A DNA stretch of 46,626 nt from Armatimonadota bacterium (lineage in GTDB: Bacteria > Armatimonadota > UBA5829 > DTJY01): positions 1 through 46,626 of the forward strand of contig JANYKG010000074.1 of NCBI GenBank assembly GCA_025358205.1, read 5' to 3'. The notes beneath the pieces were generated by a model. That model was given only the letters and a program-made list of their open reading frames with translations. It searched no databases and was not told where the DNA came from. Both the position numbers and the translations under genes were made by a program. Below, one piece after another: positions 4,586 through 13,918 of this stretch (its first letter is position 1; each line of letters opens with the position of its first letter).

Positions 4586-5776
4586 ATGCGCAGATCGTTA
4601 CTATTTACAATGCTCCTGACCGCGTTTATTTTGACCAGCTATGCACTAGCGTCATCCGCTGAAACCAAGCCGATGAGCATAAGGCGTATCGAGTGGTGGA
4701 AGACCAAACTGGACTCCGGCACATATGAATCCGCCGGCGTTTTCGATGTCAACAATGACGGCAAGCTGGACATAGTGTGCGGCACATCATGGTACGAAGC
4801 GCCGAACTGGACTAAGCACAAGATATGCGACCTTGCGCCGCAGGGTGAATACTACGACGATTTCTCCACCATCCCCATGGACATTAACGGCGACGGGTAT
4901 ATGGATTTCGTCACCGGCGGTTTCTGGGGTAATACGCTCTACTGGCGCGAAAACCCAAAAGGCCAGCCGGTTGAGTGGACGACTCACAGTATCGAGAAAG
5001 TCGGCAGCATCGAGACCACCCGCGCATGGGACGTAGACGGCGACGGCGAGGTCGAGTTTGTGCCGAACACCCCCGGCGGTCCGATTCGCATTTTCAAGCT
5101 GATACGCGACAAGGCGGGTAAAGGCACAGGGCAGTTCAAGAAGTATCAGATCACCACTGTCTCTCAGGGCCACGGTCTGGGATTCGGCGACCTGATGGGC
5201 AACGGCAAAGGCTGCTTCATCAACAACTCCGGCTGGTGGGAGCCGCTCGGCGACCCTCTGACCGGCGAGTACAAATTCCATGCTGACTTCAGCTTCGGAA
5301 GCGCTAGCGTGCCTATCCTCGTGGAAGACGTGAACAACGACGGCGTAAACGAGATCATCGTCGGCCAGGCTCACGGATACGGCCTGGACTACTACACCCA
5401 GAAGATGGACGGCGACAAGCGGGTCTGGACCAAGCACCCGATTGATCCATTCTTCTCACAGTACCACGAGATGCAGTGGGTAGACATTGACGGCGATGGT
5501 CGCGGCGAACTGGTAACCGGTAACCGCTACCGCGCGCACAACGGCCATGAGCTAGGCGAGACGGACATCTGCGGACTCTTCTACTTCAAGTGGAACGGCG
5601 AGTCGTTCACGAAGGTAGTCATTGATTACGGCAAGGTCCCCGGACACTCAGGCACGGGCATCTTCATGCAGATCGCGGACCTGGACGGCGACGGCAGGCT
5701 GGACGTAGTCGCTCCCGGCAAGCAAGGACTCTACATATTCAAGAACCTTGGCACAGAGCAGGTCGGCGCTAAGTAG
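4586..5776 (+). CDS. Secreted FG-GAP/VCBS repeat protein
   Basis: A 396-residue exported protein. The signal peptide has a hydrophobic core at about residues 5-20 and likely cleavage near ASSA at 22-25. The body has recurring calcium-loop motifs of the FG-GAP/VCBS type: DVNNDGKLDIV, DINGDGYMDFV, DVDGDGEVEFV, DVNNDGVNEIIV, DIDGDGRGELV and DLDGDGRLDVV. This predicts a seven-bladed beta-propeller with DxDxDG calcium sites and no added catalytic domain. Proteins of this shape occur beside polysaccharide-degrading genes and are thought to bind glycans or act as lyase-like propellers, but this one's role is unassigned. An AGAGG site lies about 12 nt before the ATG, which is rather far. It converges on the XRE gene with a 2-bp gap. 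Confidence 0.85.
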   Translation: MRRSLLFTMLLTAFILTSYALASSAETKPMSIRRIEWWKTKLDSGTYESAGVFDVNNDGKLDIVCGTSWYEAPNWTKHKICDLAPQGEYYDDFSTIPMDINGDGYMDFVTGGFWGNTLYWRENPKGQPVEWTTHSIEKVGSIETTRAWDVDGDGEVEFVPNTPGGPIRIFKLIRDKAGKGTGQFKKYQITTVSQGHGLGFGDLMGNGKGCFINNSGWWEPLGDPLTGEYKFHADFSFGSASVPILVEDVNNDGVNEIIVGQAHGYGLDYYTQKMDGDKRVWTKHPIDPFFSQYHEMQWVDIDGDGRGELVTGNRYRAHNGHELGETDICGLFYFKWNGESFTKVVIDYGKVPGHSGTGIFMQIADLDGDGRLDVVAPGKQGLYIFKNLGTEQVGAK

Positions 5777-5778
5777 TT

Positions 5779-5982
5779 CTATCGGTCCTCGTCATCGAAA
5801 CTGAATACCTCCTCGGTCGTGCTCTGCAGAGCGCGGGAGATTTTGTACGCAAGCCTGAGAGAAGGGTTATACCGACCCTTCTCCAGGTGTACGATAGTCT
5901 CCCGCTGCACGCCCACCAGCTTCGCAAGCTGATCCTGTGTCAGTCCGTGTCGCGCTCTGAGTTCCGGCATTCGAGTTTTCAT
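5779..5982 (-). CDS. XRE-family HTH transcriptional regulator
   Basis: A 67-residue single-domain Cro/CI-type helix-turn-helix protein. The pattern [42 protein letters not shown] gives the five-helix fold, with the recognition helix around [10 protein letters not shown]. The ATG overlaps the stop of the upstream membrane-protein gene by four bases (ATGA), so the pair is translationally coupled. Small XRE regulators of this type paired with a small multi-pass membrane protein are common in bacteria. The regulator probably controls its own operon through the dyad beside the promoter (6355-6377), which is an inference. Confidence 0.88.
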
Positions 5983-6338
5983 TCTCGGAACCCTCGCGCT
6001 TCATAGAGCCAGTACGTAAACGCAAATACCACCAGGTTGAGAATGTAGGTGGTCGCAAGAGCCTGCGCAAAACTTCGGACAAGATTCAGGTGGCTTGCGT
6101 TTCTCAGTCCCGGCCCAAGCGCCACCGCAAGGTAGACAAAAGTGCCTGTTAGGGTAATCGTGGTGACTACAAAAGTAATGGACGCAGCCTGCTTGAAAAT
6201 CGCCTCAGTCCTCTCGTCGTACCAAAACAGCTCGATGAAAACGAAGAATCCGAACATCGCCTTGAACATAGAATATTCAGTGAAGTGTCCCAACAATCCC
6301 AGGAATCCCAACAACGAAAGCCAGCGCAAATGACGCAT
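5979..6338 (-). CDS. Small four-helix membrane protein paired with XRE regulator (DUF3796/DUF2178-like)
   Basis: A 119-residue integral membrane protein. Hydrophobic stretches are at about residues 5-17, 26-40, 52-73 and 88-110, predicting three to four transmembrane helices. The N-terminal LLGFLGLLG followed by an aromatic-rich helix and a short polar loop resembles DUF3796/DUF2178-type proteins encoded beside XRE regulators. A strong GGAGG site lies 6-7 nt upstream of the ATG. It is the first gene of a two-gene operon with the XRE gene. The function is unknown; it may sense a membrane or envelope signal for the regulator. Confidence 0.75.
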
Positions 6339-9316: not shown

Positions 9317-10762
9317 ATGAACAACGAAGCCTTATACGCCGAGCGGCTGGCGAGATACACCACGGCTATGCGGAACGAGAAGCCGGACAAGGTGCCGATC
9401 CGTCCGTTCGTCGCGGAGTTTACGGCCAAGTACGCCGGGTTCACCTGCCAGGAAGTGACGCATGACTTCAACAAGGCGTTCATCGCGGCCAGGAAATGCG
9501 CGGCGGACTTCGATTGGGACGCGGTCGTGGGCAACATGGTCTACGTGTGGACCGGGCTCACCCAGGCTATCGGCCTGAAGTATTACGGCGTCCCGGGCAT
9601 AGACATCCCGCCTGACACGGGATTCCAGTACCGCGAGCCGGAGGAAGATGAGTCCTTCATGAAGGAGGACGAGTACGACGCGCTGATAGACGACCCCACA
9701 GGGTTCCTCTACAACGTGTGGCTGCCCAGGGTGAGCGCGGATATCCTCGGAACCCTCACCCCCAACCCCTCTCCCGATAACAGGCGAGGGGAGAGCTTGT
9801 ACCGCAACAACCTTGCGCTGGTGAAGGGCGGGATGGCAATGCTCCAGTACTTCACCGCGTTCGGCCCGCAGGGCGAGGCTCTGCGCACGGAATGCGGAAT
9901 GCCGGGCGCCATCGCCGGTATCTTCAAAGCGCCTCTGGACATCATCGGCGACAAGCTGCGCGGGTACATCGGCCTCACCCTGGACATGATGACCCAGCCG
10001 GACAAGGTTCTGGCGGCCTGCGAGGCGCTGATGCCGCACATGTACAACGTTGCGCTGACCTCCTCCGATCCGAGCGGAACGGTCCCCATCGGATTCTGGA
10101 TGCACCGGGGATGCGTGCCGTTCGTCTCGGCCGGGCAGTTCGAGTCGCACTACTGGCCGACGGTCAAGCCGATCATAGAAGAGCTTTGGCGGAACGGTCG
10201 GCAGACGCTCTTCTATGCGGAGGGCGACTGGGGCCATCATCTGGATTCGTTCGCCGAGCTGCCGGACAAGAGCATCGTCTACCACGTGGATCGCGGCGAC
10301 ATTTTCGAGACCCACAAGAAGCTCGGGCACAAGTTCTGCCTGAGTGGCGGGATACCGAACTTCCTGCTGGCATACGGCACGCCCGATCAGGTCCGCGAGC
10401 GGTGCAAGGCGGTGATTGACGGCGTAGCGCGGGACGGCGGGTATATCATGGACGCGAGCGCGATCATGCAGAACGATACGTCAATCGAAAACCTCTGCGC
10501 GATGACAGAGTTCACGCGAGAGTACGGCACCTACTCCGGCGGTAGCGCTGCCGTCCCGGCGGCTACGGAAAGCCGGCAAGATGCCGGCGCTACCGCCATT
10601 CCGGAGGGACGAGTCCGCGCTGGTGTGTGCATTCCGTGGGAAGAAAAGCTCAAAGAACTCCCAAACCCGATCCCCGGCGACGTGGACCTGGCTCGACGAA
10701 TCTGGGAAGAAGTGGACGCACTGGGCAACATGTTCATCTGGCAGGTACTGCTCTCGTTCTGA
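9317..10762 (+). CDS. URO-D-like protein C carrying two in-frame repeat insertions
   Basis: A 481-residue member of the URO-D/MtaA superfamily, about 100-150 residues longer than its paralogues at 2389 and 3433. Family blocks seen are RYTTAMRNEKPDKVPIRPF at the N-terminus, LAACEALMPHMYNVA in the middle, and GGYIMDASAIMQNDTSIEN near the end. The usual HxCGD is replaced by FYAEGDWGHHLDSF, so the zinc site is not conserved. Two foreign-looking peptides are present: LTPNPSPDNRRGE near residue 146, and a stretch ending in SRQDAGAT near 409-427, both encoded by palindromic repeats. The ATG has AAGGAG 5 nt upstream, right at the end of the previous gene. Cytosolic, with no signal peptide. Whether it remains active with the insertions is unknown. 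Confidence 0.8.
   Translation: MNNEALYAERLARYTTAMRNEKPDKVPIRPFVAEFTAKYAGFTCQEVTHDFNKAFIAARKCAADFDWDAVVGNMVYVWTGLTQAIGLKYYGVPGIDIPPDTGFQYREPEEDESFMKEDEYDALIDDPTGFLYNVWLPRVSADILGTLTPNPSPDNRRGESLYRNNLALVKGGMAMLQYFTAFGPQGEALRTECGMPGAIAGIFKAPLDIIGDKLRGYIGLTLDMMTQPDKVLAACEALMPHMYNVALTSSDPSGTVPIGFWMHRGCVPFVSAGQFESHYWPTVKPIIEELWRNGRQTLFYAEGDWGHHLDSFAELPDKSIVYHVDRGDIFETHKKLGHKFCLSGGIPNFLLAYGTPDQVRERCKAVIDGVARDGGYIMDASAIMQNDTSIENLCAMTEFTREYGTYSGGSAAVPAATESRQDAGATAIPEGRVRAGVCIPWEEKLKELPNPIPGDVDLARRIWEEVDALGNMFIWQVLLSF
9754..9794. repeat. Palindromic C-rich/G-rich element inside URO-D-like gene C
   Basis: A C-rich arm (CCCCTCTCCC at 9766-9775) is followed after a short loop by a G-rich arm (GGCGAGGGG, 9783-9791). 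The encoded peptide LTPNPSPDNRRGE belongs to a dispersed element seen in frame in proteins of many bacteria. It replaces or interrupts a surface loop without breaking the frame. Confidence 0.8.
10541..10594. repeat. 54-bp palindromic element inside URO-D-like gene C
   Basis: The element begins GGTAGCGC and ends GCGCTACC, an 8-bp perfect terminal inverted repeat. Internal GCCGGC arms flank AAGAT. Its length, 54 bp, equals 18 codons, so the frame is kept. The element belongs to a dispersed palindrome family I recognise from Planctomycetota/Verrucomicrobiota-type genomes. Confidence 0.8.
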
Positions 10763-12364: not shown

Positions 12365-13918
12365 GTGGCAGCCACACCGAACATCGTCATCATTATGACC
12401 GACCAGCAGCGGGCGGATTGCTCACAGCGCGAGGGGTTTGCACTGGACACCACGCCGTTTCTGGACAAGCTTGCGGCGCGGGGTACGTGGTTCAACCGCG
12501 CGTATACTTCCATGCCTGCCTGCGTCCCGGCGCGCATCAGCATGCTCACCGGGCGATACCCCAGCGCGACTCACGTCCGCACAAACCACAACATCGAGGA
12601 CATGTACTACTCCGAAGACCTGTTCGACGTGTTCCGCAAGCATGGATACACCACCGGTCTCTGCGGGAAGAACCACTCCCACCTCACGCCGGACAAGGCG
12701 GACTTCTGGTATGAGTGCGGACACCTCGGCATCCACGACGATGATCGCACCAGCGACGACAAGGCGTTCGACGAGTTCCTGGAGGGCACGCACTTCCACA
12801 TGTCGAAGGAACCGACGCCGTTCCCCGTGGAGCGCCAGATCCCCCACCGACTGGTCACTCAGGCGCAGAACTGGCTGGAGACGGTGAAACAGAAACCGTT
12901 CCTGCTCTGGCTGAGTTTCCCGGAGCCGCACAACCCGTACCAAGTCCCGGAGCCGTACTACTCCATGTTCCCGCCCGAGTCGCTGCCGCAGTGCCGAACC
13001 GACGCTGATGATCTGGAGGCCAAGGGGTTCAAGTTCCAGTGGTGCCGGGAGTCCCTGCAGAAGGCGTTCCCGGACTTCGAGGAGACTCTGCAGAGGGCGC
13101 GGTCAAACTACCTCGGGATGCTGAGGTTGATAGACGACCAGGTTCAGCGGTTCGTGCAGTTCCTGGACGACAGAGATTTGCGGGAGTACACGATCATCGT
13201 CTTCCTATCCGATCACGGCGATTTCGTCGGCGAGTACGGCCTGATGCGCAAGGGGCCCGAACTGCCGGAAGCCCTCACCCGCATACCCCTTCAGTTCGTT
13301 GGGCCGGGGATCAACGCGAACGCACGACCCCACGACGCGCACGTCTCGATTGTGGACGTTATGCCCACGCTGTGCGAGGCGGCGGGCATTCCGCTTCCCG
13401 ACGGCGTTCAGGGCAGAAGCCTGTGGCCGATGCTGACCGGGCAAGAATACCCAACAGATGAGTTCTCAAGCGCCTATGCCGAGCACGGCTTCGGCGGTCT
13501 GCACTACACCAGTCCGGAAGACGGCAATCCGCTTGAGGACGGGCTCACTCCGGGCAAATCCGAAATCCGAAATCCGAAATCCGAAACAGAGAACTCCGCA
13601 CTCCGCAGTCCGCAATCCGAAATGGAATGGGGTGCCTGCGACTGCCTGAACTCCTGGACCCAGAGCGGCACCATGCGTATGATCCGCAAGGGCGACTGGA
13701 AGCTTGTGTTCGACATGCAGGGGCAAGGGCAGTTGTACAACCTGCGCAATGATCCCTCGGAAGTCGCGAACCTGTACGACAAGCCCGATCTCCAGCCGAA
13801 GCGGCTGGAGCTTCTTGAAGACCTGCTCACCTGGCGACTGCGGGTCGAAGATCCCCTGCCCCTCCCGCGCCGACGATATTTCATGAAACGCGACCCTCGC
13901 AACTACTGGTCGCAATAG
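12365..13918 (+). CDS. Type I sulfatase without signal peptide
   Basis: A 517-residue sulfatase of the alkaline phosphatase superfamily. NIVIIMTDQQRAD at the N-terminus supplies metal-binding Asp13. CVPARISMLTGRYP at residue 53 is the formylglycine motif (Cys-x-Pro-x-Arg, Cys type). FLSDHGDFVGEYGLMRKGP gives the second metal-site block, and a C-terminal WKLVFDMQGQGQLYNLRNDPSE strand is typical. The Cys needs conversion to formylglycine; no maturase is visible here. The GTG start has only a weak purine stretch (GAAG) in the 3-bp gap. There is no signal peptide, unlike the two exported operon partners, so desulfation may be cytosolic. A heptamer-repeat insert encoding KSEIRNPKSE lies near residue 399, before the final strand. 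Confidence 0.9.
   Translation: MAATPNIVIIMTDQQRADCSQREGFALDTTPFLDKLAARGTWFNRAYTSMPACVPARISMLTGRYPSATHVRTNHNIEDMYYSEDLFDVFRKHGYTTGLCGKNHSHLTPDKADFWYECGHLGIHDDDRTSDDKAFDEFLEGTHFHMSKEPTPFPVERQIPHRLVTQAQNWLETVKQKPFLLWLSFPEPHNPYQVPEPYYSMFPPESLPQCRTDADDLEAKGFKFQWCRESLQKAFPDFEETLQRARSNYLGMLRLIDDQVQRFVQFLDDRDLREYTIIVFLSDHGDFVGEYGLMRKGPELPEALTRIPLQFVGPGINANARPHDAHVSIVDVMPTLCEAAGIPLPDGVQGRSLWPMLTGQEYPTDEFSSAYAEHGFGGLHYTSPEDGNPLEDGLTPGKSEIRNPKSETENSALRSPQSEMEWGACDCLNSWTQSGTMRMIRKGDWKLVFDMQGQGQLYNLRNDPSEVANLYDKPDLQPKRLELLEDLLTWRLRVEDPLPLPRRRYFMKRDPRNYWSQ
13556..13627. repeat. Heptamer repeat (atccgaa)n inside the sulfatase gene
   Basis: Four near-perfect copies of aatccga are followed by degenerate copies (ctccgca, gtccgca, atccgaa). 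The translation KSEIRNPKSETENSALRSPQ is low-complexity and unrelated to the sulfatase fold. The same heptamer appears inverted at 18006-18036. Confidence 0.85.

Follow-up and report, generated by a model that had tools for sequence, protein, structure and literature searches.

The 54-bp element at 10541-10594 of the window (the whole 46,626-nucleotide stretch of Armatimonadota DNA analysed here) is, judged by its sequence, a REPIN and not a simple terminal-inverted-repeat element. Very probably it was copied by a REP-associated tyrosine transposase (RAYT), landed in frame in a variable linker of a corrinoid-methyltransferase-like enzyme, and persisted there without an expected role.

An inverted REP doublet within an open reading frame

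The element was originally predicted to be a palindrome of exactly 18 codons with 8-bp ends in a coding gene, and this description holds. ORF 9317-10762, which is open and coding, contains GGTAGCGC...GCGCTACC at 10541-10594; the 54 bp read in frame as GGTAGCGCTGCCGTCCCGGCGGC-TACGGAAA-GCCGGCAAGATGCCGGCGCTACC and encode residues 409-426 (GSAAVPAATESRQDAGAT). These 8-bp ends form just the outside of a larger arrangement: two halves face each other, and each consists of GGTAGC and a 7-bp, TCY-looped hairpin. The features of the gene are:

9317..10762, + strand: host gene, encoding a URO-D-fold protein related to the corrinoid methyltransferase CdmB (Pfam PF01208, E=1e-16; PDB 9rui, E=1.2e-33)
9753..9800, + strand: first repeat, CCCTCACCCCCAACCCCTCTCCC...GGCGAGGGGAG, peptide LTPNPSPDNRRGE; an unrelated family, in a second variable loop
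10541..10594, no strand assigned: REPIN, a head-to-head REP doublet with GTAG tags; 54 bp, in frame as 18 codons
10541..10563, + strand: REP half 1, GGTAGC tag and hairpin GCTGCCG-TCC-CGGCGGC (half-unit covariance model R1, 36.9 bits)
10564..10571, no strand assigned: 8-bp spacer TACGGAAA between the two REPs, from the alignment of copies, among which its length differs
10572..10594, - strand: REP half 2, GGTAGC tag and hairpin GCCGGCA-TCT-TGCCGGC (half-unit covariance model R1, 40.7 bits)

Inverted pairs of GTAG-tagged hairpins characterise REPs and REPINs, and it is this tag, together with the hairpin, that RAYTs recognise (PMC3733652, PMC3116915, PMC8266576). The window copy is an inverted REP doublet of this kind, able to form a hairpin structure in single-stranded DNA, with a predicted fold in which an outer stem carries two hairpins. 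The fold energy of the + strand lay below that of 200/200 shuffles (z=-3.5), and the other strand gave a weaker signal (z=-2.4).

A fold better than that of shuffles would also suit a transcription or RNA element (an attenuator, mRNA hairpin or processing site) regulating the host gene from inside, and a role in RNA has been proposed for REPs that lie downstream of genes (PMC3733652). We regard this explanation as extremely unlikely: the best Rfam match is sub-threshold and at chance level (18.8 bits vs a cut-off of 75.9), no T-run follows the element, and it sits inside a coding region and is missing from orthologues.

The element belongs to a dispersed family of GTAG-tagged REPs

An 8-bp inverted repeat is by itself unremarkable in 46 kb, and it is membership of a family that lifts the element above chance. 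In its own genome (4.08 Mb in 200 contigs, a 97% complete assembly) the 54-bp element had 14 BLAST matches at E<=1e-3, of which 7 covered nearly its whole length. A hairpin covariance model recovered 25 REP half-units at E<3e-4, plus a few weaker ones, at about 21 loci; this half-unit model was built from some of the counted copies, so its E-values are not independent, whereas the DNA search is. These REPs are arranged as nine head-to-head doublets and about 12 single units.

Contigs C1 (the window copy), C17, C40, C51, C66, C90, C108, C163 and C171: the nine GGTAGC REP doublets

Two other searches were set aside. A pattern search for GGTAGCGC...CCGGCGCTAC gave no matches, the gap allowed being too short and the pattern too strict for the copies, and a 12-mer with one mismatch did no better than its reversed control (83 vs 89), so only full half-unit models were used.

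The hairpin stems covary. Across twelve distinct half-units from the BLAST copies, 97.6% of cells were paired and three of the seven pairs were changed on both sides, and shifting the stem partners along the alignment abolished the signal. As in GTAG-tagged REPs, GTA is invariant and GTAG occurs in most half-units (some are GTACC variants), ahead of a 7-bp stem whose loop is 3 nt long. The family also has many dispersed copies, modest in number for REPs, and is mainly extragenic, with 6/9 doublets and most singles of this genome outside genes; the window copy is an exception. Drift of a low-complexity linker, palindromic by accident and with no mobile element involved, would agree with the hypervariability of this linker in all orthologues, but near-identical copies with conserved tag and hairpin stand at unrelated loci and phyla, and we assign this account a negligible likelihood.

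A check for target duplications had been proposed with the original prediction. None longer than 2 bp abuts any of the nine doublets, so the family lacks this mark of a MITE of the DDE-transposase type.

Two of the copies have particular surroundings. At C17:40901 the gene upstream of the doublet apparently takes its TAG stop codon from the GGTAG, an arrangement also reported for other GTAG REPs (PMC3733652). The end of C108 and the start of C160 overlap inside a REP doublet, with one base different; the assembly broke at the palindrome.

RAYT genes and a sister REP family

Three Y1_Tnp genes were found in the genome, on contigs C117, C128 and C65. None of these (0/3, in the 97% complete assembly of 200 contigs) has a GGTAGC REP beside it, nor was a GGTAGC-flanked RAYT found among the Y1_Tnp genes of six genomes of the same phylum. 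The C117 and C128 genes (L045, L046) are 90% identical and bracketed by GGAAATGGGGACAGACACAATT-type inverted ends, which rules them out as the source of the GGTAGC REP. A motif resembling these ends also adjoins the C171 doublet. The C65 gene has doublets of a sister REP with a GGGAGC tag, GGGAGCGCGGGTGTCCTCACCCGC, on both sides, and this sister REP had 29 matches in the genome vs 0 in the reversed control. At L110 (C160:5595) and L304 (C198:27305), GGTAGC or GGGAGC tags are joined to the same GCCGGTGTCCCCACCGGC hairpin; these mixed-tag units suggest, from their sequences, exchange between the two families.

A hallmark of REPINs, a RAYT gene bracketed by REPs of the same kind within one genome, was not found in the element's own genome; it was found in L162 and L205. 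On the Terriglobia (Acidobacteria) contig L162, the exact REP GTAGCGCCGGCGTCCCGCCGGC occurs at 5598 and 6267, inverted, and tightly brackets Y1_Tnp ORFs within 5627-6246, a RAYT gene that is apparently frameshifted near its end. In L205, from one other genome, another Y1_Tnp/RAYT gene has GGTAGC REP copies on both sides. The two RAYTs are the nearest relatives of the C65 Y1_Tnp among the proteins compared (42% and 38% identity), which links the REP to a RAYT of the same group, though not in its own genome. Among the matches listed, the GGTAGC REP is widespread in public genomes, mostly of Acidobacteria, with a few further matches in Planctomycetota, Sumerlaeota, Armatimonadetes, Gallionellaceae, Caulobacteraceae and Actinomycetota bins; the matches come from metagenome-assembled genomes, and single ones may be contamination. 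REPtrons may be lost by deletion (PMC3733652). We infer that the cognate RAYT was lost from or is absent in this genome, or that the related C65 RAYT acts in trans.

The insertion site is a variable linker

The only PDB match of the host protein is CdmB from Acetobacterium (9rui), which we take to be a corrinoid-methyltransferase component. The last query residue covered by the 9rui chain is 406, and the insert begins three residues further on. In orthologues from 13 genomes the linker between 'REYG-Y' and 'GVCIPWEEK' is hypervariable (two end before it), and the insert sequence is absent from all 13, which have unrelated sequence at the site or end before it. The conservation in homologues that would speak against the original prediction was therefore not seen. 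Without the 54 bp, the C1 linker would be about 11 residues, shorter than in any orthologue (about 23-30).

Other copies within genes

In-frame copies within genes number at least three doublets, the window copy included, and two single REPs, at C114 and C65:7972. On C163, a 57-bp doublet separates AKK from VKYDLRG in a GxGYxYP-family protein and keeps the frame; at this exact site the insert is missing from 19 homologues and from a paralogue in the window, and the gene has gained about 45 bp net, less than the 57 bp of the element. The 62-bp doublet of C108 is at the contig end that overlaps C160; the joined reading gives an open frame of 677 residues, where the insert occupies a variable region of a GH106-like protein. 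For all three coding doublets the net gain seems to be below the element size relative to homologues, albeit distant ones, hinting that host codons were lost or trimmed. Some host sequence may have been lost on insertion at C1 and C163; alternatively, the linkers may have shortened independently.

The exact 18-codon length had been taken as a possible sign of tuning that keeps frames open, and the lengths of other copies argue against this. The doublets in this genome measure 53, 54, 57 (four times), 58, 59 and 62 bp, with 5/9 multiples of three (binomial P=0.14), and the 57-bp length is not confined to coding copies, as three intergenic doublets share it. Multiples of three make up 3 of about 16 sister-family doublets, and the lengths of 52 doublets from other genomes leave remainders 0/1/2 in 15/16/21 cases (chi-square P=0.55). 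A repeat inside a gene can, then, be an exact multiple of three long without having been tuned. The suggestion that coding copies might favour one orientation or frame fared no better: C1 and C163 are in opposite orientations and different frames, in a comparison that three coding doublets leave at low power.

These observations bear on the idea of a coding element like the Rickettsia palindromic elements (RPEs), with length and codons adapted to in-frame insertion and adding a useful peptide. The in-frame doublets and single REPs fit this idea, and RPEs and intragenic REPs provide precedent (PMC3733652). However, beyond the missing surplus of lengths divisible by three, frames and orientations differ, so that the coding copies yield different peptides (GSAAVPAATESRQDAGAT, VAPASRRLPGNAAGTAAVP and GTAGVSPASGSGVAGETPALP), and copies are mostly intergenic in this genome and in others. 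Elsewhere 147/154 elements were not called coding; at most 7/154 were, some of them probably falsely, and 0 of 52 doublets. The intragenic share in this genome, at least 5 of about 21 GGTAGC loci vs about 2 of 27 sister-family loci, is not significantly different (Fisher P=0.21). We consider an adapted coding element very unlikely; selection against disruptive inserts best accounts for the in-frame ones that survive.

Two linkers and unrelated repeats

The 54-bp element is a dispersed repeat unrelated to the first repeat at 9753-9800, as had been proposed, and both occupy weakly constrained sites of the protein. The first repeat had 9 pattern matches in the genome vs 0 in a reversed-pattern control, and its loop is variable in orthologues. 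From the presence of two repeat families in one gene, the original prediction drew either a hotspot or relaxed constraint. The weakly constrained, variable loops agree with the latter; a hotspot is not demonstrated, and two permissive linkers explain the pattern.

The orthologue in G003 (L049), from the same family and another genus and 79% identical, has GTCNGACNN and TCCCAYNNG, both 9-bp tandem repeats, in the two corresponding places. Both motifs recur elsewhere in a 400-kb sample of the G003 genome and never in shuffles. The G094 orthologue has a similar QTDQSDQSD stretch. That separate lineages have different repeats in these two places fits permissive linkers. With the G003 orthologue carrying other dispersed repeats in the same two linkers, recurrent colonisation may also have taken place. 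That unrelated repeats repeatedly colonise these linkers across lineages (the REPIN and the CCCTCACCCC palindrome here, GTCNGACNN and TCCCAYNNG in the G003 genus) is a tentative and rather doubtful proposal. Were it general, these bacteria would owe a major part of their new linker sequence to mobile and tandem repeats, and the use of the same linkers by different repeats offers a testable lead on linker evolution in proteins.

Other repeats occur in the window. An AAATCCG tandem array at 13556-13623 is in frame in a sulfatase ORF (12365-13918; KSEIRNPKSETENSALRSPQSEME), a third kind of repeat within genes nearby, and about 5.5 copies of a 288-bp tandem repeat, of coding length, lie at the window edge (1-1592).

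Origin of the insert and comparison with known systems

In the proposed mechanism, a RAYT of the Y1/HUH type would recognise the GTAG tag and hairpin of the REPIN and copy this non-autonomous element as single-stranded DNA. One copy would have landed in the linker that joins the enzyme's catalytic URO-D barrel to its conserved C-terminal tail, and would have persisted with the frame kept, no in-frame stop, and the segment free to vary. The insert would now add 18 residues with no expected role. Both mobilisation by a RAYT and neutrality are what we infer: the insert is most likely neutral, and the family would have been spread by a RAYT acting now or formerly in the lineage.

These findings place GTAG REP doublets and RAYT-linked REPs in Armatimonadota and tie the REP sequence to RAYT genes in Terriglobia. 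They also provide cases, C163 being the clearest, in which homologues show the protein without the insert.

The doublet resembles the REPINs of Pseudomonas fluorescens SBW25 (Bertels and Rainey 2011, PMC3116915) in that an inverted REP doublet with a short spacer is the dispersed unit, doublets are better conserved than single REPs, and there is a link to RAYTs. Its family differs from them in copy number (about 20 loci, not hundreds) and in lying more often inside genes, and its own genome yielded no cognate RAYT. RPE-1, RPE-4 and RPE-6 of Rickettsia are likewise palindromic repeats kept in frame in functional genes, but RPE-4 and RPE-6 match CGTC-tagged repeats (as cited in PMC3733652), whereas the tag here is GTAG. 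The closest parallel is with the GTAG-tagged REPs and head-to-head dimers that Di Nocera et al. 2013 described, listing 8 phyla (PMC3733652). Those elements and the present family share an unpaired GTAG beside a 6-9 bp stem with a 2-3 nt loop of TY type, dimers with the tags outside, several families per genome, and some in-frame copies within genes, adding 20-30 residues; as in the host gene here, two insertions sometimes occur in one gene. In-frame REP doublets and two insertions per gene have thus been known since 2013 (PMC3733652), and the present case is a further example.
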